64,000 bases of DNA from Asterochloris sp. CNOR1 (lineage: Eukaryota; Chlorophyta; Trebouxiophyceae; Trebouxiales; Trebouxiaceae), in assembly GCA_963969365.1 (NCBI GenBank), contig OZ017748.1:1612001-1676000 (forward strand), given 5' to 3'. The notes under the pieces were generated by a model. It had not been told where the DNA came from, did not search any database, and worked only from the letters and a program-made list of their open reading frames with translations. Made by a program: the position numbers and the translations under genes. This document shows, piece by piece, positions 8,486-64,000 of this stretch. Numbering within the stretch: position 1 is the first letter of the stretch; every line of letters starts with the position of its first letter.

Positions 8486-11400
8486 TTATGTGGTGGCTGC
8501 CCAGTCTTGGTCCAACAGCATGGCAACGTCCCTGCAGGCAGTGCTGAAATACATTTCCTGGTGACGGCGGCGGCTTGGGAGCATGTGCAATGCTAAGTCA
8601 GGTGCAGGTCGGCGGAGGGCACGGCCACAACTGCAGTGGTGCACATCGACAGCACCCACAACTTTGCAGTATAGGCAACAGGCTGGAGGCCTGCTGCAAA
8701 CTGGCAGCAGCAACAACCTGGCTGCTCACTAGCACAGGCAGCATTGGGGCTGTTGCATGCCGGCAGCACAAGCAGCAGGGAGCCAAGCAGGTCACCTGAC
8801 AGTCAGCGCAGGCTCCCCCTGCTGTTTGCGTCTGAGGTTGGCAGCCCCGGACATGTCCATAGCAACAGCGCGCTGCTGGCCAAGCCTGTGCACATTCTCC
8901 TCTATTGTGGCAGAGACCACAAAGTGGTGTACAAATGTGTCCTGGGCCTGGCCAATCCTGTGCACTCTCCCCACAGCCTGAGCTTCAACGGCGGGATCCA
9001 GGAGCGGCTCTGCCAGTATGACATGCTGTGCCTCTGCAGGCAGCATGCACAGTGTGGATGGGCTGTGTGGGCAGCATGCTTATGCACCTGTGATGCTGTC
9101 TGGCGCAACAGGCTACTACGATATGCTGCAGCTGGCACGCACAGCACTGCAAGGAGGAGGCCTTTGCTTGTCAGGTAATGGCTGTCTCTGCCCTGCTTGG
9201 TGGGCAGCAGCAGAGTCTTTGCGCAGATCTGCTCTGCATCACTGCACGGTGCCCCTGTCGAGTTGCGGCTGTCACTGCCCTGCCTGGCCAGTGGCAGCGA
9301 GCTCTGTGCCTGATGTGTGCTCAAACCGTATGCCCAGAGCAATGAGCTCACCAGTCACTTCTGAGGCCCCTGCTGCCTGATATTGCTCTCCTTGTGCTGG
9401 CACCATCCCCTCACACTGCATAAGGGTGCGCTCTTACCTGTCAAATTGAGGCCAGTACTGCCCTGCTTGATGAGCGGCAGCAGAGGTTCTGCGTGAGTAC
9501 TGCAAGGGAGTCACCTGTCAAATTGAGGCCATTGCTGCCCTGCTTGGTCAGCAACAGCAAGATCTGCGTCTGCCCAGTGCGACCCCCACTACCACCAGCC
9601 GTGCTACCACCAGCCGTGCGCTTGCCGCGTGCCTGGGTTGGGCTCATGGCCTGTAAGTCCCCCTTGAAGCATGCAATGGCAGCATCAAAGCCCTTGCGCC
9701 CATGGGCGTAGGCAAAGGGCAGCTCGTTGGCTTGCAGGGCATGGGCCACAAGCTCCAGGACGTCGCTCCAGGAGCTGAAGATCAGCAGCTTGGCCTGGGG
9801 GTCTCCCTGGGTGAGGCGGATGACCCTGCGCAGAATGGCCTCGATCTGCAGGGACAAGGACAGGGCCTCAATGCATCACAAAGGTGGTGGCAAAGCGATG
9901 CTTTAAGGTGGACAAGAGCAGCCAGGCCTGAGCTGTGTTGTCAACTTAGATGAAGCACTCTGACCAGAAGCCAACAAAATAGCAGCAGCACTTTCTTTCT
10001 GCCTAGAGGATTCTAGACCCCTCCAGACCCCTCCAGAACCACCTTGACCTGTCCAGCCTTTTCGACAGCAGTACAAATCGATCTCGACTGGACGAATACC
10101 ATAACCAACACAGACAAGCAATCGAGCAGACATTGAAGTGCTGAGCCCCAGCAAAGGCCATAAGAGCAACGTCACACCACAGACCTACAAACAATAATGG
10201 ATCAGCAGAACTGGACACAGAAGGTTCGGCAGGCCATTCAGCAGGCCATAGAGACAGCCAGGGATTCTGGACACCCCCAGCTCACAGCCCTGCACCTGGC
10301 AGTTGCCCTGCTGGAGGATCCCGGGGGCCTGGCCAAGCAGGCTGTCCTGCGCGCATCCAATGAGCAGACGTACCTCAGCCTGCTGCGTGTCCTCAAGAAG
10401 CGCCTGGTTAGGCTGCCTTCTGTGAGCCCCTCGCCAGGTGTGTGAGAGTGTGTGTGCCTGGGACCCACAATGCATGCAGCTGGCACAACAGATCTCAGCC
10501 AATGTACTGGAGAAGCTCATGCAGACAGACAGGTGCTGCCCTGCTGCATGCAAGTCCATGCATGCAAGTCAGTCGCCGCACCACAGAGTTCATGCAGGTC
10601 CCCTGGCAAATGCCGCTGCTGCTGCAGAGCCCTGGCCCAGATGCAGTTGCCTGTATGAACTGCAGCTGGCCCGCCTGCATCGTGCCTGTGCCCAGCAACA
10701 TCTGAGATTTCCTATGTTGTTGCTGCTGCACATGAGCAGCCATGTCTTCCTGTGCGCACTGCCATCGGCACCATCGCAGTGCACGCGACTTTTGACAGCT
10801 GCATATGGTGCTGCTGCAGACGAGCCCCACCCCAGCCGCGACTTCCTGCACGCTCTGCAGCAGGCCGACAAGATGCGCAAGGACAAGGGCGACTCCTACC
10901 TGGGCGTGGACTGCCTTTTCATTGCTGTGCTCAATGAGAAGGACGTAGCCTCCGCCCTGGCAGATGCGGGGGTTGGCAAGCTGCAGATCGAGACTGCGCT
11001 GCTCGACCTCAGGGGCAAGGACAAGAGCAAGAAGGCAAGCCCCCACAGCTGCATGCATACACTGCCCCTGCACCATACCCCCCAAGGCATGTCATGCGAC
11101 TAGTGCCAGCACCCATGGCATGCTGTGCAATAAACAAGCTTGCAGCTTATGTCCCTGACGTTACAGCCACTTCGAGCACCTGACATGATCTGCTGCTTGG
11201 TTGAGCCCTGCCTGTCCAGTTGCACTCCAGGTGCATCTTGGAAGCACAAAAGCATTCCTGTGGCTCAGATATGCACCTGCTTGTAAGCCTGGCCGCCCAG
11301 CCTGCCTGGCCTGCGCTGCACAGCCACCAGCACTGCCGCCTCTTGCATCCCAAGCCAATGAACAGCCCTGTCTTCTTGCCTGCAGATCAACACTGATCAT

Positions 11401-14400
11401 GCAGACGAGACCTTTGAGGCGCTATCCAAATATGGCAATGACCTGACTGCTCAGGCCCCTCGCCTGGACCCTGTGATTGGGCGTGACGAGGAGATTCGCA
11501 GGGTCATTCGTGTTCTGTGTCGGCGCACCAAGAACAACCCAGTTTTGGTGGGGGACCCAGGTGGGCATTGCCTGCTTGCATGCATGCATGGGCAGCTGCC
11601 TGGGCTGGTGCTCTGCCGACTTCAGCAATGCATCTTTTGTGTGTTGGTGCACCAAGCACTAACCCTGTTCTGATGGGCAACCCAGGAGAGGGAACAGCTA
11701 CAGTGCCCTGCCAGCTGGCTGTATGTGTACAGACCCAGGCAGTGGGCGTGCAGCTTTTGCCACCTTGCCTGCCAAGCAACGGTCCTCCACAGAAGTACGC
11801 CTGAATGCATTCTGCTGATGGATGGCCGACCAACACCTCCAGGGCTCATTCCCTGCTCAGCATGTACAGCGTATGGAACTCTCTAAAACCCGCTGTCTGC
11901 CTGCTGACCACAGTCTTAGCACTGCAGGTGTGGGCAAGACTGCCATTGCAGAGGGCCTGGCACAGCGCATTGTGAGGGGCGATGTGCCCTCAGTGCTTAA
12001 GGACACGCGGGTCATTGCGCTGGACATGGGGGCCTTGGTGGCAGGTGTGCAGAGCAGCAGCCTGCTGTGGTCAAGTGGCTTGCATGCAATGTTCTGGACT
12101 TGCACAGGCAGCCTGAATGACCACAATGGGTAGCAGCAAAGGCGTGGGATCCCTGATGGCTGTCGCCCAGGGCAACTGCTGTGCTCATGCGCTGGATGCC
12201 CAACCATGTGACAGCACGTGTAACCCCCTCAGTTTAGCCCTTGCTGCAAGTGCCAAGTACCTGCAGGCTGCACTACTGGGGCTCATTGTGTGAGAGGCAG
12301 TCCAAAACCTCTTCTGTATGCACGTGTACAGTCCCACAGCTACCTGGCGGCCTAGAGCTCACCCCTGCTGCAGGATATGCCACATAAAAACCTTTATTGT
12401 TCGCCCTGTGCGTGACTTTGAGTGAGAACCCTACTGGCTGCAGCAAGCTCCTGACTAAACACAAACAGCACACAGCCTTGACAGCTTGAGCAATGTTGTC
12501 CTCTAGGTGCTAAACAGCGCAGCAAGAGCGCCTCAGTGCTGCAAGAGACCTCTTTTATGCTACATTTCAGTGACAGCCTGAGGCTTATGGTGCTGCAGAT
12601 GACAAGCACTGCAGCATGTTTGAGGGCCCTACAGTTCTGCACCTGGATTCCTTAGCAACTACACAGTGGTAATGGCCTGGCCGCCGCCCTGCTGCAGGTG
12701 CCAAGTACCGCGGCGAGTTTGAGGAGCGCCTCAAGGCCGTGCTGCAGGAGGTCAAGGATGCTGAGGGCAAAATTGTGCTGTTTATCGACGAGGTGCACCT
12801 TGTGCTGGGCGCGGGGAAGACAGACGGCGCCATGGATGCAGGTGGGCACTTGTGGCAGCATCGTGCTGCAGCTGGTGGGAATGTATATTCAGCCTGTTGG
12901 GGAAGTGTCTGCCTGCATGCTGAGAGGCTGCCTACCTGGCTGCTGGCAGACACTTTGACAGCAGCTACCCAGTTCTGCATGCACTAACACGGCAGCATTG
13001 TGGGCAGAGGCTCTGTGCCCTCAAGCTGACAGATAGTCAGACATGCCCTGGCAGATAAGCACCCTGACGCACATGCTGCATGTGGGGCCAGTGTCCAGCC
13101 CGTTCCTGCCAGAATCCCAAACAGCCCATCAGCAATGCACATGCCATGTGTGTGCCAGGCGGCTGCCAGGATGTTCAAGCAGACCAGCAGCCTGACTAAC
13201 ATGTCCCCCATGTGTCCTGCAGCAAACCTGCTGAAGCCCATGCTGGCGCGCGGCGAGCTGCACTGCATTGGCGCCACTACCCTGGCAGAGTACAGGTTGC
13301 ACATGGAGAAGGACGCTGCCTTTGAGCGCCGCTTCCAGCAGGTGCTGGTGGGAGAACCCTCCGTGGAGGTAGGCTAGCTTCTGGGCACAGGAAAAGGCCT
13401 GTCTCCTTCCTCTTTTCAAGGTCCCTCACTGCCAGCAGGCAGTGTTCTAGTAACTAAGCTGTGCATGGCGTGTGCTGTTCTGACCACAATGTTGCATGGC
13501 AAGGGGTGTGTGCGGGAGCACCAGCTCTGCTCTGCCATCCCGCCCTGGTATGGTCCTGCCAGCAGCATCAGCATCCAGCCGCCTTTAACCTGTATACCAC
13601 CCACCCCACTGCTGCAGGACACTGTCCAGATTCTGCGCGGCCTGAGCGAGAAGTACAGCAGCTACCACGGCGTGCGCATCCAGGACCGTGCCCTGGTCAT
13701 GGCGGCGGTGCTGGCTGACCGCTACATCACCGCCCGCTTTCTGCCCGACAAGGCCATCGACGTAGTCGATGAGGCCTGCAGCAACCTGCGCGTCCAGCTG
13801 GAGAGCATGCCTGAGCAGCTGGACGCCATGCTGCGCCAGCAGTACCGTCTGCAAGTGGAGGAGGCTGCCCTGGCTAAGGAGAAAGACCCGGTGCGTTGCA
13901 GGGCCAGTCCAAGAGTTATCTGGCTTCCCACCATGTTGCAGTCTGCATCTACCTACAAAGGTATGTGCAGGAGGCAGCCACCTTTGTAGTAAGGATCTGC
14001 GTGAGGCCTCGGAGCAGCCCTTGCTGCAGTGCTGTTTGCACATTTGTGATCAAGGGCAAGAGTCCAGCAGCAGGGGTGCCCTTGTGAGGTTCTGAATATG
14101 CCTGGTGCGCCTGGCATCACAGCCAGCCAGCTTGGCACCCCTTGTCACAACTGGGGCATATATTAGGGAAGCTAATGTCTTGATGCAATGGGTCTAAACA
14201 TAAGCAGCCAGAACAAGGCCCCATCAGCAGCCATACAAAGGCCCCCTGCAGCAGCTGCACGCATCATGCCTGTTCCCCTGCTGGCCTGACAAATCATCCT
14301 GCCTGCCCTGCTGTCACAAGGGAGCCAGCAGCAGCTGGAGGAGGTTGCCAGGTGCTGGCAAGGCGCTGGCCAGGCTGCAGGTCAAGTCTTGCCCCCTGCC

Positions 14401-17400
14401 AGCAGCTGCATGCACCCCAACTAAGCCCCCGGCTGCCTTGCTACCACAGGTGAGCCAGCAGCGGCTGGAGGAGGTGCGAAAGGAACTGGCAGAGCTGCAG
14501 GACAAGCTGCAGCCCCTGATGCTACGGTATCAGCAGGAGAAGCAGCGCCTGGAGGGGATTCGCCAGCTGCAGAAGAAGAAGGAGGAGCTGCTCATGAAGC
14601 TCCAGGAGGCCGAGAACCGCATGGACCTGGCCATGGTGGCTGACATCAAGTGGGTGCTAGATCTGCTTTTGGGGGTTGGGCATGCTCCTAGTGCAATTGT
14701 GTACTGGCTATGCCTGTGATTGGGTGGGAGAGTGCAAGTGCGTATTGGTGAGCATCATGGAGCCTCAGCAGCTGCACTGTGCCAGTACAGCAGTTGAAGT
14801 ACCTGGCCCTGACGGCTGACAACAAGCGTGAGCTGCCTCTGTATCTGTGGCCATCCTTGTGGCCAGCAGGGTGTCTCAGCAGCTGCATGGTGCCTGTGCA
14901 TTGACTTGTGATGTGCAGACCATGCTGCTGGACCTAGATAAGGTCCAACAGCATGCAGCCAGCCTTGACATTGGCGTGCTCCACAGCTTCACAAACCAGT
15001 TGCTTAGACCCTGCAAACCCCACTCCTGCAGGTACGGCGCCCTTGGAGAGGTGGAGGAGGCCCTCAAGCGCAAGCTGCAGGAGCAGCCCAAAGACATGAT
15101 GCTGAGGGAGGAGGTAAGCTTGGGCCACCCAAGATGACCAATTCTGGCCTGGCACAGCCTGGTTCCCAGTGTCATCTGCGCGCAAGGCGCCCAGCAAGGA
15201 CTAGCACAGCCCTGGGTACCACAACAGCACTGGACGTGCGCCTCTTCGCAGACTTGCTTGTTCAACCGGCGCTGTGGCCTGACAGGGTTTCTCCTGATGT
15301 GGCTGCGGTCACAGCCAAAGACATTAGCACTCCAGGGGAGGACATTTAGCTTGTGCCCATCCATGCAGGTCAAAGTACAACAAACAGACATGCTCAGGCC
15401 AAGCTCACTGAACCAGACAAAGTTGCAAGTGCCCCTCTGTGCTCTTGCTGCAGGTCACAGTGGAGGACATGGCCAATGTGGTCTCTCGCTGGACGGGCAT
15501 TCCCGTTAGCAAGCTGACCCTGAGTGAGCGCGAGAAGCTGCTGCACCTGGCGGAGGAGCTGCACCACCGTGTGGTGGGGCAGGACCAGGCAGTCGAGGTG
15601 AGCTGATGCTCGTGCTGTGCTTGTCACGATTATGCATGTCAGGTTTGCACCGTTATGCGGTGGGGCAGCAACAGGCAGTCTAGGTGGGTGACAGGCGACA
15701 TCTTGGGCCTTCAGCGGTTCTCAGCAGCAGATAGAGCCTGTGATCATGGTCAGCTTGTCCTTCAGTGGGCTTGTATGTGTCAGCTGTGCACCTGACCACA
15801 ATTGTCACCGACATAGTTGTATGTGAAGGTGCTGCGGGGCCTGTAGAATGTAAGGCCGTTGCTTTGGGCAGCCCTGTTATGCTTGATAGTGCTGTGCAGC
15901 TACGCTTCCTGCCTGCAGGCGGTGGCCCAGGCGGTGCTGCGTGACCGAGCGGGGCTGTCTTCGCGCAACCGCGGCAGCAGCTTCCTTTTTCTGGGGCCCA
16001 CAGGTGAGACAGCCTGTGCTGTGCAGCAAGCATTGGGCAGCCCTGTTGTGTTGAGTATTCACAACTCTAGCAAGCTGGAGCCTAGCACCCTCAGCATCCA
16101 GCAGCCACAGGTTGCCAGCAGAGCCAGCCGGCCTGCAGAACTGCCGGCCAGCAGCCCCTACAGATGGCAGCCACCTGCTGGCAAGCGGGGGCAGACTGAG
16201 CCTGCCTTCCCAACAGCATGCACTGTTCAGGCAAGCCTCCCCCAAGCTGACAACCATTATTCTCACCCTGTGTGCAGGTGTTGGCAAGACCGAGCTGGCT
16301 AAGGCCTTGGCGGTGCAGCTGTTTGACAGCGAGAAGATGATGGTACGCATTGATATGGGGGAGTACATGGAGAAGCACAGCGTCAGCCGCCTCATTGGGG
16401 CGCCCCCAGGCTACATTGGGCATGAGGACGGGGGCCAGTTGACCGAGGCTGTCAGGCGCAAGCCCTACAGTGTCGTATTGCTGGACGAGGTTGAGAAGGT
16501 GGGATGTGCTGAGTATGATGGTTTCCCCAACTGTCAAGCATACCCCAAGCTGAGTTGTGGTCTTGCATGTCTGCTTTTGTGCAGACAGACAGAGTGCAGG
16601 GCTCCATCTGGCTGGGGTCTGAATGGTGATGGGTGCAAGTTGGGCCTGGGCAGGTGAGGCAGCTCAAGGCTGTCAGGCGCAGGCCCTATAGGGTGATGTT
16701 GCTGGAAGATGTTGATAAGATTCTGGTGTGCTCCTCCGAGGGACTCATGTCTGCTGCATGTAGCCATAGCCGCACTGAGCCAGAGTGCAGCTGCAGCCAA
16801 GCTGGGCTGCTGCCCTCTGCCTGCCATGCACTGCGTGCACAAGGCGGTTGACAAGCTGTGCCTTGCCCTAGTCCCTGCTTGCTGCATGCCAGCCAAGCAG
16901 GCTGAGGGTCCTCCAATTGCTCAGCCTGATGGTGGGCATGCACCAGACAATTGGCTCCGAGCGCCCAGCCAGCATGGTCCACTGACAGCAGCATTGGCCC
17001 ATGGCCGTCTGAGCACTTCTTGACGGCAGCACAACTGAGGCACCACTGCCACTCTTGCTACAGGCGCACCATGACGTCATGAACGTGCTGCTGTCGGTGC
17101 TGGATGATGGCAGGCTTACAGACGCTAAGGGCAACATTGTGTCCTTTGCAAACACCATCATCATCATGACCTCCAACCTGGGCTCAGACATCCTGCTGGC
17201 CATGGGCCTCCACGCCGACTCCAGGGAGCGGGTCATGCACTTGGTCAAGACTCACTTCAGGCCAGAGTTCCTCAACAGGTAGGTGCTGCTGATGTGCAGG
17301 ATGGTCATGCAACTTTGTGTCAAGCGGCCAGCTGATGTCCCTGACTGCCTCTCACAGCTGCTGCCGAATCAACCTTCATGAGAGCTGGTAGCAGCCCATC

Positions 17401-20400
17401 TGCTTGGGGACTTGTGACCGGCCCCACAGGGCTTTATGCCTCTTGCAAATTTCAGTCACGTCTGCATGTCAGCAGCCTGCTGCTGCCTTGCATGCAGCCG
17501 CAGGCTGATGACACTGCACCGCAATGCCAACAGGGCAGCTGTGCTGCATGGTCGACAGGCAGCTGGCTGCTGGGTGGTCAGCACCAAGGCAATGCTGTGC
17601 GTCAGTGCATGGCCACCAGACCAGTTGTTGCCAGCACTTGCAGTACACTCTATCTGGAATGGGTCATCAACCCCGTTCCGTGATGCCCACCAGCAGCTGC
17701 TACTGAGTTGAGTGAGCTGCTGCAGATGCTGTGCTTGATGTTGCTGCCCCCAAGCTCCATCCCCTGCCACCTGCAGGCTGGATGACACAGTCATGTTTGA
17801 GCCCCTGGACCCTGTGAAGCTGCGCGGCGTGGCCAGCATGCTGGCAATGGAGCTGAACCAGCGTCTGAGGGACCGCAACATCACCATGGTGGGCACCCAC
17901 ACAGGCTGGACATAACTTGCAGCAGGCTGATGGCCTCCACAGTGCATGACCACCAGACATCCTGGACTCGCGCAGGCTGACTGGACACGTGCAGAAGCCT
18001 GCTTCCTGCATGCTCTTGCATGCCCTTCAAGCCCGCCCATTGTTTCTCGGGGATGCCTGGTGCCTCCTGATGGTTGCCAGCCCCTGGTCACCAGCCCTTG
18101 CAGAAGGGTGATTGTTCCCTTGTGTACCAACACCATCGTGATGGGTGCCTGCCATGTGCACTGGCCATCTGAAGTCACCCGGCCTGCTACATGCACCTCA
18201 GCCACCGCGACTCTGCAGCAAGCCAGCTGAGCATGGCTGCCGCCAGTCAGAAGGCCTGCGCTGAGCAGCTTTGGGAGACTGAGGGTCATCAGTATGCGCT
18301 AGGTTTCAGGGCTTTGGTGACATCGGTGCTGCTTGCATCGAGAGTTATATGGAAGCCCAACAACCAGTCACCTGACATTGGCAATCCCAAGCCCATCAGA
18401 CACCCCAGCTAAGGCGTCCACTTTGTGATGTGCAGGTCATGACTGATAAGGCTTTGGACCTGGCAGTGCGCGAGAGCTACGACCCAACATTTGGCGCCCG
18501 CCCCCTGCGTCGCTGGCTGGAGCAGCACATCATCACAGCACTCTCGCGCATGATTGTTGCTGGTGTGCAATGTGTAGTGGCTGCCAGCACCCAGCATGAC
18601 AGATGTTCAGCTGTGTGACAGCGCCTGCCTGCAGCATGTTGCCTCGGCCAATGCTAAGCTCCATCTGGGTGACAATCTGGCAGCCAGCAGCCCCACAACC
18701 ATGCCTGGCACTCTGAACTTGTTGCTCATTTCTTGATTTTGCCAGGAGATTATCCCTTGCACCTCAAGCGTCCATACCCCACTTGCTGTGCTTGGTGCTT
18801 GGGTTTAGGCCAGGAGGTTGGTGTGTCTTGGTAGCGGTTGCAGGGTGACTGGGGGGCACAGGCCACCCCTCACGATGAGCCCAGTCAACCTTCACCTGCC
18901 TGCCTTGCAGGCGAGCTGGAGGACAACAGCAAAGTGGTGGTGGACGCCAACTCAACGGGCAACATGCTGACATATGACGTCGAGAAGCTGCCTGACAAGC
19001 CAGGGCAGGGCCATGGCACCAAGCGCGTCAAGCTCGCAGTACCAACAGACATTGACGAGGAGGACGAAGACTCAGACATGGAGACATGAAGCCCCCATGA
19101 GAGATGGGTCACAGAGCAGCAGCAGCTCTTAAACCCCCTGTAGATCTTGCAGCCTGCCAGAGCAACTGCAGCTGGCCTGAGAGAAAGTGATGCCAGCTGC
19201 GGGGGCAGCTTGAGAAAGACTCTCAACAACTCATTCCTGAACCCCCAGACGTAAGCTACCATTACAGTCTGCTTGACAAACCTCAAGTGCATGCAGAATT
19301 GAAGGTTGTCTTGGAATGGCCATACCCAAATGTCAATCTAAATGAATGGCTGAGACCTGTCTCAAGTGGCAGACAGCTGTGCCCCTGCATTGGCAACAGG
19401 CCTACCCCTAGATGGCCTGGTCTCCTGCCAGCCTTACCTTATTGTCTCTGTCGTGCAGCTAGACACATGTTATCTCACAATGGAGCCATGGTCATGTCAA
19501 CCCCTCCTGCTTACCTAAACCCCTGCCCAGCTAACCACTGTGTTGCCTTGGTGTCCGTGCTGGCCATGGGGGGCCCTGCTGCCTCAGTCCATGTGCAGCG
19601 AACCCTGCTCCTATACCCTGCTAAAATAAGCCAGCTTCTTACCTTGGTGCCATAGCTGCCCCTGACCTCCACTCCCGCCTCCTCGTCAGCGCGAGCCTGA
19701 TGATGTGCCCCATCCGCTTGCCTCAATGCAACATAGGCCATGTCTGCTGCTATCACCCGTGTGCGGCAAGTGGGGCAGCTGATGCGCTTCTTCCCCTGCA
19801 CCGCACACAGCAATGCTTCAGTGGCCAGGGAACAACACCCCCACCACACCACTGCAGGTTGCAAGTATTACATCTTTAAGTTTGCGACAGGCTGGCTGTG
19901 AAGAGGTGTTGCTCTGCTATGCTGTACGTCAAGCAGATGCCCACTGCTCTCGACTGTGCTGCATGTACGCTGCTCACCTCAGGAGACAGGTTTGGCGCCC
20001 TGTCCACCAATGTGAGGCTGCATCTGCAGCACAGCTGGTGCCCACACGGCAGCATGTAGAGCTCATGCCCCAGCGGATCGTGGCAGATGGGGCACCTCTC
20101 AGTGCCTGCAGGCACTCACGCACTCATGTCTACCCAAGTGAAGCGGGGTACAGCCTTCTGGTACCCATGGCACAGCGCACACCCTGAGCATGCTGTGCAA
20201 GGTCTGAAGCTGCCTAGCTGCAGCAAAAGCCTGCCAGACCAAAACCAGGTTTCTCGGCAGCAGGTGCCATGGCCTACCTGTGCTGGTAGGCTCTGCAGCT
20301 AGGACAGGTTGCAGAGCGGTACTTGGAGACTGCACGCTTGGACTGCCCTGTTGATGTGATTGAATGCCTGGCGGGGTTGCAGGGCGCTCCCGCAGCTGGC

Positions 20401-31874: not shown

Positions 31875-34800
31875 GGCTGCCAAAGCAAAGCAGAAGGCCG
31901 GTAGGGCTCCAGTACCAGCCTGGAAGAATGACACGCTGGAGGGGCTGGAGAAGGGGTCGCGTGTCTGGTTCAGGGCCTCCGACACAGAGTGGCGCCTAGG
32001 CACGCTGACCAGCGTCAATGCCAAGGTCACAGCGGAGTGCATCGTCGCACTCGATGCTCAGCAGGTGGGCTGGTTGACGCACAGGCTGCCCTTCAGCAGG
32101 ACACAGAGTGCACTCGGGACATGCACCAGCACGCTGCATGCTCAGCACGGGGGCAGCCAGTCCTCCAGCAGACCTTCTGCTGGGCCCTGCGTGGCTCTGC
32201 CTGGGCAACTGGCATCACTGCGCCTGCTGCGAATCGGCGGCCAGCTGGCGCCAATCTGCTCTGGTGCAAAGTCTCCATTCTCCCATGTGAACCTGCCAGG
32301 CCAAGGCAGGGTGGTGGCATGCGCCTGTTGTCAGCCTGCGTCCACATTCTCCACAAAGGAAACCAGAGCGAGAGCCCTGAGTCCGTTGCGCAGGAGCTCA
32401 GTGTAAAAGGCTTGTCAGGCAGGGGCGGGCAGGCGAGGTGGCCTGCCAGCCCGACCCTGTTCAGTCTCTTGTAAGAGGCATGCTGCTGCATGCTGTCCCT
32501 ACAGCAAGGCGGCCGGGAGATGGTCAGTGCTCACAGCACGAAGAACATGCTTGTGGGCTGGCCCTGTTGGACGGCGGTGCAGGCAGTGGCTGCTGAAGGG
32601 CGGTCGGGCAGACCGAGCTGTGTGACGCCCAGCACGGCTGCCCCTGCAAGCCCTGCTACATGTTGCTGCTGCTGCAGGGCCCTGGCAGTGGGGAGCTGGC
32701 CACCGCCCAGATCACACAGTGTGTCCCCGCAAACCCAGCCATACTGGATGCAGTCCCTGACCTGACCAGCTTGACCTACCTGAACGAGCCTTCTATCCTG
32801 CATGACCTCAACCAGAGGTGTGCTTCTGCCTGTGGCAGTCCCCGCGCAGGCCAGCCACGAGATGACCAGCTTTGCTGCATGCAGCCCGCTCCAGGCATCA
32901 ATCTGCTGCCCCAGCTAGCTGCATGCAGGCGCACATACACTGGGCATCACCCTTGCCGGCTGCCCTATCTGGCCACCATCAGGGCCTGCCTTGGGTGCAA
33001 CTTCCGTTGCCTTTCACGGTCTCTGACTGGTTGGTGGACATTCTGCAGCACGGGCAGCAGGTCGGGGGCACAGCACCCGACAGCAGGCTTGGAATGGCCC
33101 CTGTGTGCCTGTGCAGGTATGCCCAGGACGGGATCTACTCCCATGCAGGGCCTGTGCTGATCGCAGTGAATCCCTTCAAATCCGTCCCGCTGTATGCGCC
33201 CGATGTGGTGCAGCGCTACAAGGTAATGGGGAAGCCTGTGTGAGCCAATTTGATCATATTGACTGACTCTGGCTGCTCCTTGGAGGCCAGGCCTGCATCA
33301 TGTGAAGGTGGTTTGCATCCCTGCAGCAGTGCACCTACACAGCTGTCAGCCTGCACTTGTCTAGTCTAGCTGGATCTGACCCCTATGGCCCCGCCTACAT
33401 TGACACGTAGCAGGTGCAACTCATCAGTGCAGCACAACAAAGCTCCGTGCATGGCACAGGCCCGCGCCAACGCAGAGCAGGTGGAGGGCTGGGACCCGCA
33501 TGTCTTCCTGATAGCAGACAAAGCCTTCAAAGCCATGGCTGCACGCAACGCCAGCCAGAGTCTGGTCATCAGCGGGGAGAGTGGAGCGGGCAAGACTGAG
33601 ACCACCAAGGTTGCTATGCAGTATCTGGCGGGGCTGGCTGGAGGCACTGGTGAGCTTGCAGGCTGCCTGGAGACAGTGGGGCACCTCAGGAGCAGCCATG
33701 CAGTGCCTGGCAGGGTTAGCATGCTGACACAAGTAAGAGATGCACAACACAAGGCAGGCTTGCATGGCCATCCATGCACATCCTGCAGGGGGTGTTGTGG
33801 GCGGGTCCCAACCCCTTGGATGCCATGTGAACTGCACTGCTCTGTCCTGAAGGCCTCTGGTTCGATTGCTGCCCAAGCAGGGTTCTTGTGGCAACCATTG
33901 CTGCAGGGGTGGCGGTGCAGGTCCTGCTGACATACCCCGTTGTTGCTCAAGCACCGCTCCTACCCACGCTGCAGGGGTGCAGTGACAGGCCCCGCAGGCT
34001 CCCTGCCAGCGACAGTCGCATCTGAGCACAACATGTGTCCCGGCGGCCTTCGCAGTGCACTGCTCACGTGTGGGTGCTGCCCCTGGCTGCAGGGGTGGAG
34101 GGGCAGGTTCTGCAGACCAACCCCCTGCTGGAGGCCTTTGGCAATGCCCGCACGCTGCGTAACAACAACTCCTCCCGCTTTGGGAAGCTGTTGCAGATCT
34201 ATTTCAATAACAGTCGGCACATCTGCGGGGCCCTGATCCAGACCTACCTCCTGGAGAAGTCCCGGGTGGTGCACCAGCTCCCAGGGGAGCGGAACTACCA
34301 CATCTTCTATCAGGTGGGGCGCTGACACCTCTCCACAGGAAACCTGGATCTACGCATGCTGAACCGCGGCTGGTGTTGCTCACTGACAGAGGAACATCCC
34401 TGGGCAGTGATGGCATGCCTTTCATGACACCTTCTGCGTGCTGCTGTGCTACTGGAGCCAGCATGGCTGGCCAACTGCAGTTCGCCATGTCTAAGTCTGA
34501 ATTGCAGAGCCATGGCATGTTTGAGCTTTTTGCCGACAGCAGGGCAGGCTTCTGCAGGTGTGCTGGCCTCTGTGTGACAGGCATCTTGAACTCTGAGGAA
34601 CAGCCACCTGTCGTACTCCTGCAGAGCAACAAGGAGTCGCCTGCCGCCTGCAGATGTTAAGCTGTGCAGTTGCGTGGCTTCCTCAGCTTGCTGCGCCCAG
34701 CCTGCAGTTGCTGCTGAGCTGGACTGGTAGCCCTTGCATTGCTTCTGCCCTGCAGCTGTGCAGCAGTGCAAGGGTGTGTCAGACGAGGAGGCCAGGCAAC

Positions 34801-37800: not shown

Positions 37801-40800
37801 CACCGTGGAGCACTACGCTGGCCCTGTGACCTATAGCTGCCACAGATTCCTGGACAAGAACAGGGACACCCTTAGCCCAGGTGCCCGAGCGTATGGTGCC
37901 GCCCCTCTGGCTGGCTGTCTGGTTTGAGCATCACTGTAGTGCTGTGCAGAAAGCAGACACCCCTGCCCAGGTGCAGCCCCTTGACGCTGTCTCACCGGCT
38001 GGCTTGCACATCTCAAGACGGTTTTGCCCTGATGGTGCTGTACTGCAGCCAAAGCTTCGTTACAGCTGTACTGCTGTGCAGCCTTGCAGCCTCTCACAGT
38101 TACAGGGTCGTCCCCAACACCAGCCTGTCTATGACAGCGCTGATTCAGCTGCTGTGCACAAGCCAGGAGGCCCTGCTGCAGCAGTGCACTCAGTCTGGGT
38201 TGCCATGCCAAACCCAACCAGCATCTGTTCCCTGCTGCACCCATAGACTTGGTCAGGCTGCTGCGTACCAGCCGGCAAATGGAGCGCTTGCCCCTTATGC
38301 AGTGTCGTCCCTGTTGCAGATCTGATTGAGCTGTTGCGTGCCAGCCAGCAGGGCCTGATGCAGCAGCTGGCTGTCCACATTGCGGCAGGCCAGGAGAAGA
38401 AGAGCGCCCAAACAGTGGGCTCGCGTTTCCGAGACCAACTGAAGGACTTGATTGCTCGTCTGGACCAGTGAGTTGCTCCCTGCTTTGTCATGCCGCTGCT
38501 TGCTGTTTACGCACAAAAAGTTGCTGTCAGAAGTTGAGCTTCACTGAGCTGCTTGGTAAGTCAGGGGCAACAGCTCCTGAGGGTCCCATGCAGTCTGGCT
38601 CGCTGCAAGCGCGCAGAGGCTGAGCCTCATGACCAGCTGAAGGACTTGATTGTATGCCTGGGCCTGAGAGTGGTCATCAGGTTTCAGGCTCAGCGCCTAG
38701 GTACCAGTGCGTGTATTGGACAGCCTGGCATGCTCTGGGTGTCTGGCACTACGGCTGCTCTGTCGGTGCAAAAGCCCACGCCTGCCAGCCCGTCATCACC
38801 AGCAACAGCAACACTGCCAGGTTGCTGCATATGGCGAGGCTGCTGGCTTACCTGCAGCATTGCAGCCCTCTGGCGCGTGGTGTCCCAGGCTTTGCATTGC
38901 CGCCTTGGCAGGTAGCCTGCTTTGCATCAGATAGCCGCAGGCCGCCCACCTGGCAGCCTGTGCGCGTGCTGCCGCCTCCTGCCAATGTACACCAAGCCCG
39001 CCCTTGCCTGCCTGCAGGACGGAGCTGCACTTTGTGCGGTGCATCAAGCCTAACAGCGCCCAAGTGCCTGACCGCTTCGATGCCCCCCTGGTGCTGCACC
39101 AGCTGCGCTGCTGCGGGGTGCTGGAGGTCACGCGCATTGCCCGCGCGGGGTACCCCACCCGTTATGCCCACAGCGCATTTGCTGAGCGCTACCGGGTGCT
39201 GCTGCACGGCCGCAAAGGTGGGCTGTGGGATGCCCGTCACCCCTGTTATGCCCACAGGGTGCTGAGCGTAGCCGGGGCTGCCTGGCCGCAGAGGTGGGAT
39301 GTGTGTTACTTCAGGGGCAGTCAGGACCCTGCCATTCAGGCCCTCCTCAGGATCTAGTGAGCAGGATTGGGAAACTTCTTTGCTGAGCGCTACAGGGTGC
39401 TGATGCATGGCCGCAAGGGTGGGTATGGGTTCCTTGAGGGCAGTGGAGACCGCCACTCAGGACATCCTCAGCAGGCCTGCTCTGAGGCTGCAGCATGGCA
39501 GCTGGCTGAACTGCAATCTTTGCATCTGGCATCACCACAAATCGTTGATGTCACGCTGGCCAGGTATAAGCGTGCCCAACACTGATCCAGGGATGTGGCT
39601 GGCAGCCTTAGATGGTGCCCCTGCATGTGCATAGAAAGGAGAGTCAGCTGGAGGTATGGCTGCTGGAGGAGGGTGTTTCACTGCTGTTGTCTTTTGCTTT
39701 GCAATCTGGCATGCATACCTGCAGCAAGGGCAAGGAGAGTGCAGTGGAAGTTCTTAAGAGCTCGGTGCCCCTCTTGGCGTCGCCCCACAGCAAAGTCATG
39801 CCTTAGGCAGCACATGCCTGCCTGCAGCCAAGGGCAAGGAGAGTCCGCTGGAGGTGTGCAAGGCGCTGCTGGAGGAGTTCCGTGTGGCTCCCGCCATGTA
39901 CCAGGTCGGGCGCACCAAGCTCTTCTTTCGGGCGGGCGTGCTGGGGCACCTCGAGGACACTTGGGCACGCATACAGAGGTCAGCCGCCACCAAGCTGACT
40001 GATTGCCCCATGACTGCTGGCGCCTGCCGCAGACTTGAGGGTCAGGTGCATGCCCTGCATTGCTGCAGTGCTCAAGTGTACACTTGCTCGTTGACTATTG
40101 CCTGCAGTGTCCTGAGCCGCCAAACTCAAGCCGCAATGCTGCAGCACATGCATGTCCACCAATCTGCTCCACAAAGTTCACCACTCACCTCTGAAGCTGC
40201 TTCAGATCTTGATGCTTGCAGCTCCCTTCGTATGCTGTCGTGCTGCTCCCCTGCAGTTCCGTGCTGACGCTCCAGAGCACTTGGCGCATGCTGCGCGTGC
40301 GACGGGCATTTTTGCTGCAGCGTCGGGCTGCTGTGCGCATCCAGGCTCGTGCCAGGTGAGAAGGCGCAGCGCCCATGCATCTGCTGCTCAGACAGAGATC
40401 CCAAGGCCACCAGCTGCTTGAACAGTGGGAGTCAGGAGAAATGTCATGTTCAGTGTTGCATGTGCACCTGGCGGCGCCTCCTTTCCTCCAGTGCTCCTGC
40501 TGCTCAAGTACCTACATTTTTGGAGCAGGAGGCCACTTGATCCTTGAGGCAGGGATGTGCACGCTCATTGCCTGTATTCAAAAGGAGCCAGAGTATCATC
40601 TGCAGGAAGCAACATGGTGACCTGACGCTTGGTGGGCTGCAGGGGCATGCGCGCCCGCCGCCTGTTCTTGGAGATGCTGCAGCAGCATCAGGCAGCCATC
40701 CACATTCAGGCTGCAGTGCGGGGCCACACCCAGCGCCAGCGGTACCTACACACCCTTGCAGCTGTGATCTCGCTTCAAATGGGGCTGCGACGCTGGCAGG

Positions 40801-44780: not shown

Positions 44781-45133
44781 AGCTCAGCCTCAAAAAAGAT
44801 GATGTTGTCAAGTTGAAGACTGGGGCATGAATTACAAACTTGATGAAATGGCACACTCTTGATCTCAAAAAGAACCACTGTTGCTAGAACAGCATTTGGC
44901 AAACACACAAACTCTGCGAAGGAGTCCCAAGCTATGCACGGGTTCATATCACTTCAGCAGCAGAAGTCGTAGTGACTCCGTCAAAATTGGCACAAAATGT
45001 TGGTGAGAGCTCCTTTGAGCTCAGCAAAACACATGGCATTCCGCTAGAAGATGCCAAATTCAAAATGCTTGGCTACATAGGCCAAGCTGGGGACATGGTG
45101 CTTGGGCTCAGGGCCACAGTATCTGCTCAAAAT
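44781..45133. other. Convergent 3' region
   Basis: About 350 nt between the myosin stop (plus) and the stop of the small minus-strand gene. It should hold both 3' untranslated ends. A plus-strand frame starting at 44972 is open here but is antisense to the minus gene and is not supported. No canonical polyadenylation signal was identified with confidence. Confidence 0.4.
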
Positions 45134-45741
45134 TCAGTTGCCGCCAGCTGGGAACAGCCTGAGACCCTTGCTAGACTTTCTCTCGGCAAAGCCCTGGAGG
45201 GTCTCATTGGTCATCATGGACACCTGCTCAAGGGCGCTGGCAAACCTGCGCCCGCTGCGGGCCCTCTTGTTGTCAGCAAAGCCCTGAAGGGACTCATTAG
45301 TTTCCATGGAGACCTGCAGTGCAAAGTCAGCTTAACCAGCTGAGGTGTGTGACATGGCAGGTGGCTGCCAGGGCGGGAAGTGACAAATTTGGACTGGCAA
45401 CATCACAGTACAATCTATGAGATTCAGTACAGATTCAGTCACAGGTCATTGTCAATACGATGCTGTACTGCTGCGGTACGCACCTGCTCAAGGGCACTCC
45501 AGCCAGCTGGCCGGGGGACGTAGCTGCGTGCAGCGGCATTGGGCTGCTGCGCTGTGACCCTCTGTGCCTGTGCCTGTTCCTCCCCAGGCACATCTGGACG
45601 CCAAAAGGGGGACTGGGCAGCTGGTTCTGCAGCTGTGGAGTTCTGGGCAAACCGCAGGAAGCCACCACTACGCTTCTGCTGCTGGTGCGCAAACTTGCGC
45701 ACTGATACTGTGGGGTTCACCATATGGAGCTGGCCGATCAT
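45134..45741 (-). CDS. Small protein with internal repeat, function unknown
   Basis: Two minus-strand exons, 45741-45484 and 45313-45134, join in phase 0 (donor gtgcgt, acceptor ctgcag) to give 145 residues from MIGQLHMVNPTVSVRKFAHQ. The second half holds a repeat: SALEQ-VSMETNESLQGFADNKRARSG is followed by ASALEQVSMMTNETLQGFAERK (written here in parts). The first copy is split by the intron exactly between ALEQ and VSM, while in the second copy the same point is continuous exon. This suggests an exon-internal duplication across a splice junction. The middle is rich in Ala, Gln and Pro. No known family, signal peptide or membrane segment is recognised. The start could lie further upstream, since an acceptor-like ccgcag precedes the exon at 45748. 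Confidence 0.55.
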
Positions 45742-50250: not shown

Positions 50251-50564
50251 GAGTCGCCAGCCGGCGCGAAGTAACACTGCTGAAGAGCGCAGCACTCTCG
50301 ACAGGTCCTATACATAGCGTTCTGGTTGTGAGCAACACCTCATGTACGATCAACAACTGTGCAATTTCAGGCCACTTAGGTTCCGACTGCGCCTCAGGCT
50401 GCTTCTGCCTCATTTCTGTTACACCAATTTTCCCAGCAAACTCCTACACTTGCTGGCCTGGAACTGCGCTCTAGATACAGATACTTTAACACAGTGCCGA
50501 CATTGGATCAGGGCCTTGTCATCCTACTGGTCTCTGTCATGAATTGCTACTGCTTTGCAACGCA

Positions 50565-53404
<2,840 letters not shown>

Positions 53405-53714
53405 CTGCAGCACCGCCTGCAGGCGGGCAAGCAAGCAGACTGAGGCTATGTTCGTGATGGTAGCAACAAGCCTCTGCAGAGGCTGACTTCTGCGGCAAGA
53501 GCTGGAACCGGCTGGCTTGACATGGCTCAGATATCCTTTGAGCCCTGGTCGGGCTTGAGGGTGAACAGTTCGGTGTCGCATAGGCTGCACTTGCAGTGTT
53601 TCGACATGGCCTGATTGATGCAAACTGCAGCCAAGAATGGATGTTACGTTCCTCCCATTTCTCCCTAATAATGAAACAAGTCTTGCCAAGATCCCCCCCA
53701 GCACAGGTTAGCCA
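53405..53714. promoter_or_regulatory. Divergent promoter region of DHS and MIP2/NBAS
   Basis: About 310 nt separate the first supported DHS exon from the first MIP2/NBAS coding exon on the other strand. It must contain the missing DHS first exon and both start sites. A minus-strand frame stays open through it, which may be partly coding. No TATA box is obvious. Confidence 0.4.
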
Positions 53715-59700: not shown

Positions 59701-62700
59701 ATCTCCTGGAGGTACCACACAAGGAGAGACTCGATCAGCTTCACAAGCTGCTCAGAAACAGGCACAGCCAAAATCTCAGCTGCTGCCTGCACGTCCTGCA
59801 GCAAGAACTAAAGGAACCAAAGGTGCCCCTTGGTCCTTGTTCAACAGTTGCTGATCCCTATTGATCCATGCCATGAAATGCATGCCGTGTACTGCACCCA
59901 CAGCTGCTCAGAAGACAGCCCACCCCATGCCAAGCTGCTGCCCACTTTGTCCTCCTGTAGGATGGCTGCAGCCGCTGATACCTGCAGCAGGCCCACCACC
60001 ATGTTCCAGCTTGCAGCTGTGGTTGTGTGTTGACCCAGACAGCCATGCTGCAGCTTTGCCCTTGCTGCAGCATTGCCAGCAGAGAGTGACCCCGTCTCAA
60101 CACTTCCCTGGCCTGTTTGCAGGCTTTTGAGACTAGAACAGAGGCAGCTGCAGCTGTTGTGAAGACAGTGGATGTTCTGGAAGCAGGCACTGAGTGGGGC
60201 CACCTGGATGCATTGCTGGAGGAAGCTGCACACTGCCAGGACGTAGAGGAGTCCACCTTGCTCAGGGTGCAGCAGGTGACAGTGGCTGTACAAAACATGT
60301 ACAGCCGCTTGGCAGCCTGCCGGCAATGCATTGGCTGAGGCTATGCACGGTGAAGCTGCAACGATGTATGGCTCGCCACCAGTAATGGCAGCCAGATGGC
60401 TTACCACAGAGACCCACTTGCAGTGACGGGTTTCCAGCTGCTGCGTCAGGTGGCACCTGAGCACAGCTCAAGAGGTGCTGCGCAGTGCAGAGCTACGGCC
60501 GTGTGACCTTGCCCCGCCGCCTGATGTTTCAGTGTGGCCGTCCTTCTAGGCTCGCAGGGCCATATGCTGCATCAGATGGCAGTCGCGCTGCTCCCTGAGC
60601 GCTGCCCATTCACAGCCACACAGCATTGCCGCCAGCACTGTCATGCCTGCAGGTCAAGCTGCGTGTGGCAGCAGCCAAGCTGCTGCATCAAACTGCAGTA
60701 GAGGCTGCTCCCCAGGAGCTTGTGGTGGAGGATGCTGATGCTGCACGCGCCCTGCTGGAGCGTGTGTTGCGACAGCACACCTCTGGCAAGCCTGCTGAAT
60801 CCCAGTGAGTGCTTCAGAGGGTTCAGTGGCTTTGTTTGCCTGAATAGTCGTGTATCCAATTGGCAACGCAGGTCTCGTGGCAGTGCGGTATGCTGGCAAG
60901 GCAGGAAGGTTGCAAGGTGGCTGGTGCAGTGATGCCTTAGACAAGGTATCTACAGTGTTTGTGAGAATGTGCTCAAGAGCTATGCTGCAGGTAGGGCAAG
61001 CTGTGGCAGCAGCTGCATGTGCCTGTCAGCTCTGTCGAAGGAAGAAAGTGCAGCATCACTTGAGCATGCGAAATGGTGATTTGCATTTGGCTGCAGGTGG
61101 GGCGAGATGTGGCAGCGACTGGGCGAGCTGCACAGGTGTCTTTGGACGGGCTGCCTGCCACTGGAGGCGGTGCATGCTGCAGCAGTGAAAGCAATGCTCT
61201 GCTGCGGCCACTTCACAGCTGCCAGGAAGCAGCTGGCAGGTGAGGCACTGTCTCCCACAGAAGCACGAGCAACTTGACATGCAGCACAGCAGCCCTGCAA
61301 AGTCTGTATGGTCCATGTCCAGCCCATGTCACCTGCTTTCTGCTGGGATAGCCTTGTCTAAATGAGCGCCAGCAAAACAATCGCTTGTTGTTGTGCAGAT
61401 GCTCTGCAGACAGAGTGTCTGATGCCAAATCGCAGTCTGTCATTGCAGCAGCCCACAAGCACTTATTGGGTGCCCACTGATCAACCCCTTGCTGTCCTTA
61501 TGCGTGCTCCAGAGATGCATCGCTCAGTACAGCCCAGGCTGTCATTGCAGCAGCCCCCCAGTGCTTCCAGGCTGCCCACTGAACCAGCACTGGCTGGCCT
61601 CATGCAGGATCCAGAGAAGGATCGCATGACGCAGTAGCACAGGCTGTCATTGCAGCAGCCCGCCAATACTTCCAGGCGGCCCAGAGTGCAGACTCGGAGG
61701 AAATGGCTCTGGCCCAGCTGTGCTTAGCAACGCTGCCCAAGCATGCAGCTGTTCAGCACGAGCTGGCAAGCATTAGGGCCCTGCAGGAGCTGCAGTACTT
61801 TGGGGTGCATCTCACTCCGGCTGAGTATCAGCAGGCAAGTGTCTAGGGTGCCATCTAGGGTGCCAATGGCCACTGTAGCATTGCAGGAGCTGCAGTACTT
61901 CAGAGTGCACTTCCTGCCTGCCAGGTACCAGCAGGTGGCATGTGGTCAGCGAACCTTAGGCACCTGAGCAGCGCAAACTGTTAGATAAAGGCTGTTTGAG
62001 GCACACTCATCCCGTACAGCCATGATGCTGCTGTAGCATTTGGGGGTGGGCATCTCTGCTCATAGTCCTAACTCAGTCATGGAGAAGCCGTGCAGGTTGG
62101 GCAACCAGTTGGCGCTGGTACAGGTGGCCTGTCTGCAGACCTCGGGGCACCGTTTGGCAGTTGTGGTGCTGGGCTGCAAGCTGCGTGACTCATGCACGAC
62201 ATTCTGCCCTGCAGGTTGGCAACCGGATGGCGCTGGTGCAGGCAGCCCTGGCTGCAGATGCCAGTGCCCATGCCAACATGGGGGCCATCAGGGGCCTAGC
62301 AAAGCTGCTGGACATCACAGGCCAGGACCAGGAGCTCTGCTTCCATGCAGCCCACGCTGCCCTACAGCATGGTGATGGCCCCTCAGCGCGCAGGCTGTGC
62401 CTGCCACTTGTCGAGCGAAACTACAGGCCAGCCTGGTGCCTGGCAGCGGCCGTTGCCCGGGAGACGGGGGACTCGGCCTCCGACATGCGCCTGCAGCAGA
62501 GGCTGCTGCACTTTGCGCTACTGCACTGCCCCAAGTCCCAGGTGAGGCCTGCACAGTTACTTGCCGCTGCTTAGATTTGCCACTGTGAACGTTGCAGTGG
62601 TGCACTGCCCTTGTCTGTAGATGAGCCCTGCTATGCACTGCCTCACGTCGCAGGCAAGGCCTGCAGCAGCAGTTGCTCAGCTTTGCAGTGTTGTACTGCT

Positions 62701-64000
62701 CCAAGCTGATTAGGCCTCCGCAGAGGCTGCTGCACTTTGCTGTGCTGCACTGCAACAACTGACAGTGAGGCCTGCACCTTCTGCCTTGGCATTGCTGCAC
62801 TGCCCTGCAGGTGAGAGAGACCGCAAGGCACTGCCTGATGACTGCCATAACTGGAGCTGAGGCTGTGCACGGCACGCGGATGAGTCACAGTTGGCTGGTT
62901 GGGGCTCTGCATGTGGGACTGCTGACAGAAGCAGAGGTCTCCAGAACACATGTTATATTATGTCATCAACTTCACTGCTGCAGATCTGTGGCCTGCTCAG
63001 CCACCTGGAGGCCCTGCACAGCCACACTGGGGGACGTAGCCTGCACCACAGCATGGAGGATCTAGAGCAGCTTCTGGGGGAGACCATCCATTCAGCCAGC
63101 AGCCCAGGTGAGCACATGCCATTCTGACAAGGAGCTACATTGGTGTGACCAGTCTCAAACGTCAGCTGAAGCTAAGCAAGCAAAATTGGTCAACAGCATA
63201 GTCTGTATGTTGATTGCTGAGGTGCACGAATGTGACAGGCTGTGCTGGTGACCAGCCTCTGATTACACACTTCAGCGGTACACCTTCCTGACAGTTGCCG
63301 AGCTGATGTCTCAGGCCTGACGCTTGCCCCATACAGGTGCTGCATATGCAGATAGCTGCCAGGAAGTGAGCTTGGCAGGTCCTTACCTCACAGCTGTGGC
63401 CTGCTGCCTGCACCTGCTGCGCTCTGGGGGCTGCGCGGCTCTGGAGGCCAGCTTAGCGCGCTGGCAGCACAATCCGGCAGGACACCGATGCGCACTGCTG
63501 GCGGGAGTCACCGCAGGGGCCCTGCAAGTGCGTGCTTGGCAAGTGGTGCATAAGCGCAGCTGCTGCTGGTTCGAGTGCCCAGAAGCTGCTATTTGAGGCC
63601 GGCCAGACATGGCTGTCATTCAGTACAATTCATATTGTGTGCGCTTCAGCTGCTGGGTGGCACCGTCTGGGGGGCAGGAGCATAACAGGCACTGAATTGC
63701 TGCAAGCGTGGTCCTTTCCTGTGGCAACATTGTGCATGGCTTGAGGTCAGTTGCCCAACGGTGTGTTTGCCCACTTGCGTTCTGTGGGACAGCGAGACCT
63801 CAAATGACCCACAGCGTTGCATGATCAACCCACACAGGTGTCTTCATGAGGTCCCTGGGCACAGCTCTGCAGTCAGCCTCCAGCAGGGAGCAGAGCACCT
63901 GAAACCACTTTTTGTCCCCCAGAATCATTAGGATGGTGCCCTGTGCAGGTGTTGCTGGGGCACAGCTCTGCCAGCAGTCTCCAGCAGGGGACAGAGGTCA
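53715..64000 (+). CDS. MIP2: MIP2/NBAS-like SEC39-domain tethering protein, 3' end missing
   Basis: NBAS in animals and MIP2 in plants join ZW10/MAG2 in the Dsl1-type complex that tethers Golgi-derived vesicles at the ER. Supported exons: 53715-54103, 54249-54432, 54892-55080, 55440-55556, 55889-56102, 56445-56522, 56716-56965, 57128-57309, 57592-57700, 57862-58066, 58390-58551, 58995-59175, 59367-59483, 59686-59822, 60123-60275, 60653-60804, 61097-61239, 61656-61834, 62215-62541, 62984-63107 and 63337-63527. All phases agree, giving about 1,260 residues before the edge. The first third looks like a beta-propeller (LGAWNADSSTLAVATAGGG, RITGMAFLPQPSLLVVVGEQ). Then come the SEC39 parts, e.g. 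LQILLHRHAYVVSSRILHVL with CLPETLGSQQ, FSPDQWPELLREADW, and AARQYFQAAQSADSEEMALA with LQELQYFGVHLTPAEY, which line up with NBAS. Four introns use GC donors. The start at 53715 is the least certain point. Confidence 0.87.
54408..54890 (+). repeat. Copies of an MIP2/NBAS exon end
   Basis: The end of exon 54249-54432 (agcctctgctgagcgtgaag before gtggtt) is echoed at about 54583 (ggcctctgctgaacgggaag then gtgggg), 54652 and 54866. The first copy keeps the aag|gtg border. All three lie in the intron that separates this exon from 54892-55080. Confidence 0.65.
61436..61960 (+). repeat. Tandem exon-start copies and an exon-end copy in MIP2/NBAS
   Basis: The acceptor ctgtcattgcag plus cagccc occurs three times, at about 61437, 61538 and 61643, with a 101-105 nt period; only the third leads into the open exon 61656-61834. 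The end of that same exon (caggagctgcagtacttt then gggtgca...tatcagcag) recurs at 61886-61936. So the exon is flanked by two decayed starts and one decayed end. Confidence 0.8.
62085..62780 (+). repeat. Copies flanking the large SEC39 exon
   Basis: The exon start at 62215 (gttggcaaccggatggcgct, then ggtgcaggca) is preceded at 62096-62150 by gttgggcaaccagttggcgc, tggtacagg and cctgtctgcagac. The exon end (ctgcagcagaggctgctgca ctttgc, here in two parts) recurs downstream at about 62652-62700 and 62716-62780, the latter with a gtgaggcctgcac block as after the real donor. Confidence 0.75.
63830..64000 (+). repeat. Direct duplication at the right edge
   Basis: The stretch 63837-63892 (acag then gtgtcttcatga..., gggcacagctctgcagtcag, cctccagcaggg) is repeated at 63949-63999 with the same order. 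Both start right after an acceptor-like cag and could be the start of the next MIP2/NBAS exon and its echo. Which one is used cannot be decided inside the window. Confidence 0.6.

Follow-up and report, generated by a model that had tools for sequence, protein, structure and literature searches.

Decayed copies of exon edges in introns of Asterochloris sp. CNOR1 probably stem from a past wave of small tandem duplications

Results

Exon edges recur in the adjoining introns

Introns of the green alga Asterochloris sp. CNOR1 contain decayed copies of the edges of the exons next to them. These copies, here called exon echoes, are probably (we put it at about three in four) the traces of a past wave in which short segments, for the most part 70-135 bp long, were duplicated in tandem, at times serially, in coding and noncoding DNA, leaving echoes where the duplicated unit crossed a splice site. 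Echoes were originally predicted in a stretch of 64,000 nucleotides (assembly GCA_963969365.1, contig OZ017748.1, positions 1,612,001 to 1,676,000, forward strand), which is referred to as the window. Our survey comprised 294 kb, i.e., the window and 23 stretches of 10 kb from the 56.4 Mb genome (21 contigs). The first 18 of these stretches were taken at one fixed coordinate, one per contig, and five more were added later.

For 224 internal exons, up to 80 nt of each edge were compared with the 450 bp flank while other exons were masked. An edge was considered positive when its match beat those in the flanks of all 150 other exons used as controls. This was the case for 27 of the 224 5' edges in their own upstream flank and for 27 of the 224 3' edges in their own downstream flank, the two edges being symmetrical in echo frequency. 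Wrong-side combinations were positive for only 2/224 and 4/224 exons, and the reverse complement of the adjoining flank yielded 3 and 1. The difference between adjoining side (54/448) and wrong side (6/448) is highly significant (Fisher P 2.5e-11). Matching by non-adjacent introns, which had been named as grounds for rejecting the prediction, is therefore not what is seen, and the echoes also recur elsewhere in the genome: the five held-out stretches had 6 and 4 positives among 41 exons, with zero wrong-side and zero reverse matches. In the window alone, 10/73 exons (5' edge) and 8/73 (3' edge) beat all 150 controls (wrong side: 1 and 0), which is close to the "about twenty" echoes originally counted there, and the measured lags of 68-500 bp agree with the distance of about 60-350 nt that had been reported. 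When one equal-scoring control is allowed, 52 of the 224 exons have a near-edge echo, giving 63 edges in total with a median lag of 131 bp. For 40 of these 63 echoes the exon match ends no more than 3 nt from the splice site, as is required if a duplicated unit crosses the exon-intron border.

Five of the 18 stretches (L003, L008, L014, L015 and L019) are free of echoes. Median intron length is 80 bp in L008, 134 in L014, 180 in L019 and 228.5 in L003, and genes with short introns seem to be spared.

The exon map is a sequence-based prediction by a purpose-trained gene finder, which learned first from hand-set exons and subsequently from its own predictions. The finder recovers 21 of the 23 hand-set exons exactly, missing one exon with a GC donor and placing one acceptor 12 nt away; as the hand-set exons were part of the training, this figure is not an independent test, and protein alignments were used for that purpose. 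The spliced products for HSP101 (770 aligned residues, ClpB1), the myosin motor (658 residues) and deoxyhypusine synthase (304 residues) are all colinear with solved structures. The echoes in these three genes are thus not missing exons, which disposes, for these genes, of the concern that the echoes are the real exons and the annotation is wrong.

Placement of the repeat pairs was compared with random expectation. Exon-intron pairs are in excess (46 observed, 17.6 expected), as are pairs of exon and other sequence to a lesser degree (12 versus 8), while intron-intron (18 versus 21), exon-exon (2 versus 10.5) and pairs outside exons and introns (13 versus 32.2) fall below expectation. In simulations at a divergence of 0.2, exon echoes were detected with a frequency of 0.49 and noncoding pairs with 0.145, the thresholds for the two being different, and this ratio resembles the observed enrichment. 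The apparent focus on exon edges is therefore at least largely a detection effect: echoes are most visible because the partner exon is held by selection and hardly changes, while noncoding pairs fade faster. A true preference for exon edges may exist in addition.

Repeats are direct, local and built from a unit near 100 bp

Across the 294 kb, 157 direct matches but a single inverted one were found within 1.5 kb at a score of at least 35, which is the arrangement of direct, close copies that defines small tandem duplications. At a looser score of at least 32, the numbers were 204 and 7. When the window was compared with itself (blastn, word 7, dust on), scores of at least 44 yielded 25 direct matches at lags of 50-700 bp, none at larger lags and none inverted. 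Lowering the score to at least 34 gave 46 direct matches at lags below 1.5 kb, compared with 17 direct ones beyond that distance and 24 in inverted orientation. At a score of at least 40, the 18 stretches contributed 59 direct matches with lags of 50-1000 bp, a further 5 with lags of 1000-2000 bp and 2 inverted ones, and the five later stretches 11 direct matches below 1 kb, with none farther apart and none inverted.

Blastn suppresses matches near the self-diagonal, and its floor at lag 50 is perhaps partly a program effect. An ungapped scan run as a check found few repeats at short lags: of 51 repeats, 6 lie at lags 10-69, 26 at 70-139, 3 at 140-189 and 7 at 200-239, and there are none in the background lag range 2000-2600. 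For lags of 170-240, 16 of 31 pairs connect to a further copy at a shorter step, and 83 of 148 matches group into 25 families, so that longer lags are often sums of steps. Noncoding and exon-linked pairs (64 and 82, respectively) share a lag peak at 80-119 bp, which points to a mutational unit rather than to selection at splice sites. Duplication is local and direct only, proceeds in units of about 100 bp and occurs in series. A family of 17 related direct-repeat pairs in L014 (1981-3722), with lags of 93-1411 bp, has a longer range than the usual pattern.

Echoes have decayed neutrally and few are young

Comparison of exons with their echoes over 583 codons gave proportions of synonymous (pS) and nonsynonymous (pN) differences of 0.247 and 0.148 and a pN/pS ratio of 0.60. 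Such a ratio is expected when the echo drifts freely and most changes in the exon are silent; the surplus of silent differences implies that real time has elapsed for the exon, too. The decayed copies show no hypermutation bias at codon positions 1 and 2 (C>T 26/334, G>A 20/328, A>G 26/317, T>C 21/267), and repeat-induced mutation of duplicates, which should leave a strong C-to-T and G-to-A bias, was rejected on this ground.

Young copies are rare. Only 1 of 47 exon echoes is at least 93% identical to its exon where a constant rate predicts 32-36%, and none of 49 noncoding pairs of at least 35 nt reaches 90%, with 27% expected. Note that an array in L014, described below, was tallied with the exon-linked pairs (4/67 at 90% or above) and stands outside the noncoding set. 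Deconvolution places the observed echoes at a divergence of 0.12 or more, and the assumption of a constant duplication rate costs about 26 log units in fit (log likelihoods of -118.8 and -121.0 versus -93.0 and -93.8). Since a constant birth rate cannot give more older than younger copies per unit time, activity must have fallen, and the echoes look like an old pulse of duplication. The original proposal that this genome often makes local duplications thus stands as far as their local, direct nature is concerned, but finds no support for the present. The few young repeats are short or of short period (L020, 33-bp period, 97%; L021, L022 and L025, 22-31 nt matches, 93-100%). An extensive undetected pool of very old echoes was also considered and rejected, the indication being weak at best. 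An estimated 0.81 (5') and 1.0 (3') of exon edges carry no signal, compared with 1.07 and 1.16 for the wrong-side controls, and one wrong-side bin was slightly shifted as well (mean z 0.28).

Introns appear to have grown rather than been born

An intron created by tandem duplication is left with a donor region that resembles its own acceptor region, the two matching segments being one intron length apart. This signature was found in 0 of 201 introns, so that intron birth by this route, one half of the original proposal, is not supported and was rejected. The other half, growth, fares well. An echo was present in 0 of 78 introns shorter than 300 bp and in 35 of 122 introns of 300-2000 bp. Introns with an echo have a median length of 511 bp, which drops to 344 once the lags are subtracted, and echo-less introns have a median of 325.5 bp; the two groups differ in length (P 2.5e-6) and cease to differ when the lag is removed (P 0.55). 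Introns with echoes are thus longer by about one unit.

The youngest array found resides in L014 and consists of three 68-bp copies with 94-96% identity (545-748, within region 528-748), each ending in an acceptor-like TTGCAG followed by GT. By eye, it lies inside an intron that would have lengthened from some 80 bp to some 216 bp, a possible case of recent intron growth. The gene finder differs here and calls an exon over the first copy.

Sequence beyond the splice sites

If the duplications were tandem, homology should continue beyond the splice site. Past the acceptor, the identity on the intron side is 0.425, which fits the 0.38-0.47 expected at indel ratios of 0.1-0.2. The 30 purely noncoding pairs resemble simulated full tandem pairs with a per-copy divergence of 0.12-0.25 in length/lag, identity and score.

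Several observations weigh against our interpretation. Only 11 of 90 pairs abut, and homology fills the gap significantly in only 10 of 78 tested pairs, although most old abutting pairs would fail this test according to simulation. Past the donor (+7 to +20), identity is 0.292, which is at background level, where 0.47, 0.40 and 0.33 are expected at indel/substitution ratios of 0.1, 0.2 and 0.4 (P 0.0005, 0.0085 and 0.22), and the gaps inside the echoes point to a ratio of about 0.1. Extension with gaps allowed reached significance in 1 of 16 cases at donors and in 6 of 19 at acceptors, and echo alignments span 40 nt compared with 52-55 nt in simulations at low indel rates. In-frame stops in echoes number 3, with 7.6 expected under neutrality (P 0.057). 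Finally, geometry contributes to the length contrast between introns with and without an echo, as long introns offer more room for one. The shortfall on the donor side could result from selection that destroys the decoy donor by small indels, as suggested by two echoes with a shifted intron match (in L006 and at 62215 of the window).

Echoes and neighbouring genes in the window

All features described in this section are on the forward strand unless stated otherwise. In HSP101, the exon end 11513-11561 is echoed at 11637-11686 (lag 124; 80% over 50 columns), with GA in the echo in place of the GT donor of the exon. The exon start 14433-14512, which includes 17 nt of intron, has an upstream echo at 14303-14380 (lag 130; 77.5% over 80 columns). 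Two further exon ends, 15570-15600 and 16446-16498, are matched at 15656-15686 (lag 86; 87% over 31 columns; GT kept) and at 16667-16719 (lag 221; 83% over 53 columns; donor lost, AT).

The myosin gene carries upstream echoes of five exon starts. Four of these are simple: 34086-34124 with its echo at 33900-33938 (lag 186; 84.6% over 39 columns), 34934-35006 with 34755-34827 (lag 179; 83.6% over 73 columns), 36071-36123 with 35743-35794 (lag 328; 77% over 53 columns) and 38322-38366 with 38140-38184 (lag 182; 80% over 45 columns). The second corresponds to an example originally singled out at 34745-34830. An exon end at 38433-38473 reappears at 38631-38671 (lag 198; 80% over 41 columns). The next exon end has two echoes (39158-39423): 39158-39227 is copied at 39242-39303 (lag 84; 75.7%) and 39178-39222 at 39379-39423 (lag 201; 91% over 45 nt), the latter confirming the other example that had been named (39365-39425). 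They form a serial family linked to a pair at 39279/39404 (lag 125). The same intron holds two linked upstream echoes of the fifth exon start, at 39636-39671 (lag 200, 81%) and 39710-39751 (lag 103, 84%; whole feature 39636-39877).

On the reverse strand, a deoxyhypusine synthase exon edge (about 52450-52566) is followed by a chain of echoes at 52561-52663, 52691-52784, 52824-52896 and 52982-53066 (52450-53066 overall; lags 105-500; 71-84%). The chain fills most of the intron, and with the echoes left out the protein aligns colinearly to the solved enzyme. Also on the reverse strand, a copy of an exon end (9513-9569; exon 9515-9845) has an echo at 9436-9494 that beats all controls (lag 77; 83% over 59 columns). 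Towards the end of the window, the exon start 62206-62258 has an upstream echo at 62087-62139 (lag 119; 83% over 54 columns), and the exon end 62496-62554 has two linked echoes at 62630-62665 (lag 113, 84%) and 62720-62777 (lag 224, 85%). Away from exon edges, a noncoding tandem pair is located at 3332-3391 and 3447-3506 (lag 115; 84% over 61 columns), and Tandem Repeats Finder reports a noncoding array of period 102 with 2.4 copies at 61433-61683; no strand applies to these two.

Regarding gene identities, the name SHPRH given originally is backed by one exon with an SNF2 domain, while two other exons of that stretch are without a Pfam family; the name NBAS was not confirmed. The donor of the HSP101 exon 10820-11034 appears to be of the GC type (GCAAGC, 11034-11035), and colinearity of the protein with ClpB1 extends across this junction. 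Judged by eye, helicase-C-like and RING-like exons on the reverse strand (9516-9845 and 19643-19795), for which Pfam and PDB searches returned no match, flank HSP101 (10820-19089). If these flanking exons hold, HSP101 would be nested in an intron of an SNF2-type gene. Upstream of the exon echoes, an actin-family exon (1648-1884, Pfam E 8.4e-24) and a casein kinase I exon (5853-5999, E 1e-24) are both encoded on the reverse strand.

Discussion

How could an exon edge come to lie in the intron next to it? Under a wave of small tandem duplications, units falling inside exons would mostly be eliminated by selection, and in introns and intergenic DNA both copies would decay freely. Where a unit crosses an exon-intron border, the outer splice site would stay in use, the protein would remain unchanged and the intron would gain one unit. 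The spare exon edge with its splice site would thereby turn into unconstrained intron sequence, the echo. As to the chemistry, the literature suggests that nicks on opposite strands about 100 bp apart may give rise to a staggered break, which would be filled in on both sides and then joined. Fill-in of staggered breaks gives direct, adjacent and short duplications (PMC8355091) and thus fits the orientation and size of the echoes.

One competitor is that tandem duplication runs at an ordinary, constant background level, as it would in any eukaryote, with the shortage of young copies being an artefact of sampling or assembly. Small tandem duplications are indeed common in humans and plants (PMC8355091), but young copies are far too few among exon-linked and noncoding pairs alike, and one single-nucleotide polymorphism per 20-30 bp should suffice to keep copies apart in an assembly. 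We consider this explanation unlikely. The behaviour at donor sites would be accounted for by copying that respects splice junctions, in which exon-edge pieces are re-inserted nearby, e.g., from a splicing intermediate via reverse transcription. Homology stops at the donor (0.26 identity at +7 to +13) and runs some 14-20 nt into the intron at the acceptor, and the donor-side shortfall has a P of 0.0005 at the indel ratio favoured by the echoes. However, a constrained branch region and pyrimidine tract would likewise produce the length seen on the acceptor side, noncoding pairs that peak at the same size come close in number to exon-linked ones (64 versus 82), and re-inserted complementary DNA should land in both orientations and at many distances, whereas the echoes are direct only and none is distant. 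Such copying is improbable in our view, and about as improbable is its specific form, in which intermediates of the first splicing step were copied, with the donor or roughly the branch point as the limit, and the copies came to lie beside their source in direct orientation within a limited episode in the past of this lineage.

Retention of AG by 15 of 23 echo acceptors and the somewhat low number of stops would fit alternative or decoy exon edges that are functional and maintained by selection. Against this stand the pN/pS ratio, mismatch frequencies of 0.159, 0.127 and 0.211 at codon positions 1, 2 and 3, GT in only 7 of 17 echo donors, gaps in 15 of 47 alignments and lags without preference for multiples of three (15, 13 and 19 in the three classes). 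Coding constraint on both copies, the mark of an alternative or duplicated functional exon, is not found, and a functional role for the echoes is very improbable. Lastly, echoes might derive from a mobile intron-like element (introner), either as fragments of it or as target-site duplications, given that short repeats surround unrelated sequence and that the unit is near the shortest introns seen (66-102 bp). However, no repeats of larger lag occur in the window at a score of at least 44, the birth signature is missing from all 201 introns, and a 201-bp probe over one echo, the sole probe searched, found only its own locus genome-wide. With no dispersed family seen in the window self-comparison or with this one genome probe, a transposon or introner family was rejected, and we give an origin from such an element next to no credence.

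Transposons and the loss of selection are usually held responsible for intron lengthening. Duplication across a splice site provides a simple and datable route, in which each event adds about 100 bp to an intron and leaves the protein untouched. The conserved exon serves as a ruler for the age of its echo, and intron growth, unlike intron birth, becomes directly countable in a genome. This raises the question of why activity peaked in the past and why the unit is so near 100 bp. We found no account of the exon-echo pattern in an open-licence library, which excludes most subscription journals, and this does not prove novelty.

Intron gain by tandem genomic duplication was reportedly described by Hellsten in 2011 and by Gao and Lynch in 2009. 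The route via an internal AGGT is covered in a review (PMC3443670) and by a case from potato (PMC4974935). The echoes resemble this process in that a tandem duplication touches coding sequence, splice signals are duplicated and the protein is unchanged; they differ in that existing introns are lengthened, the birth signature being seen in 0 of 201. Rogers and Bendich (2025, PMC11782384) compared the two ends of introns and described direct repeats of 4-30 bp near intron borders. The echoes are likewise direct repeats near splice sites, but consist of exon-edge copies of about 25-100 nt inside the intron at lags of about 70-400. The closest relatives appear to be small tandem duplications at staggered-end breaks, generated by CST-Pol alpha-primase fill-in followed by end joining (PMC8355091). 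Both are direct, about 100 bp or less and without inverted copies, and adjacency of the copies may be a further common trait. In Asterochloris, in contrast, the set is a fossil one with few recent events, a peak at 70-135 bp and serial families, for which repair enzymes of the same kind may have been responsible.

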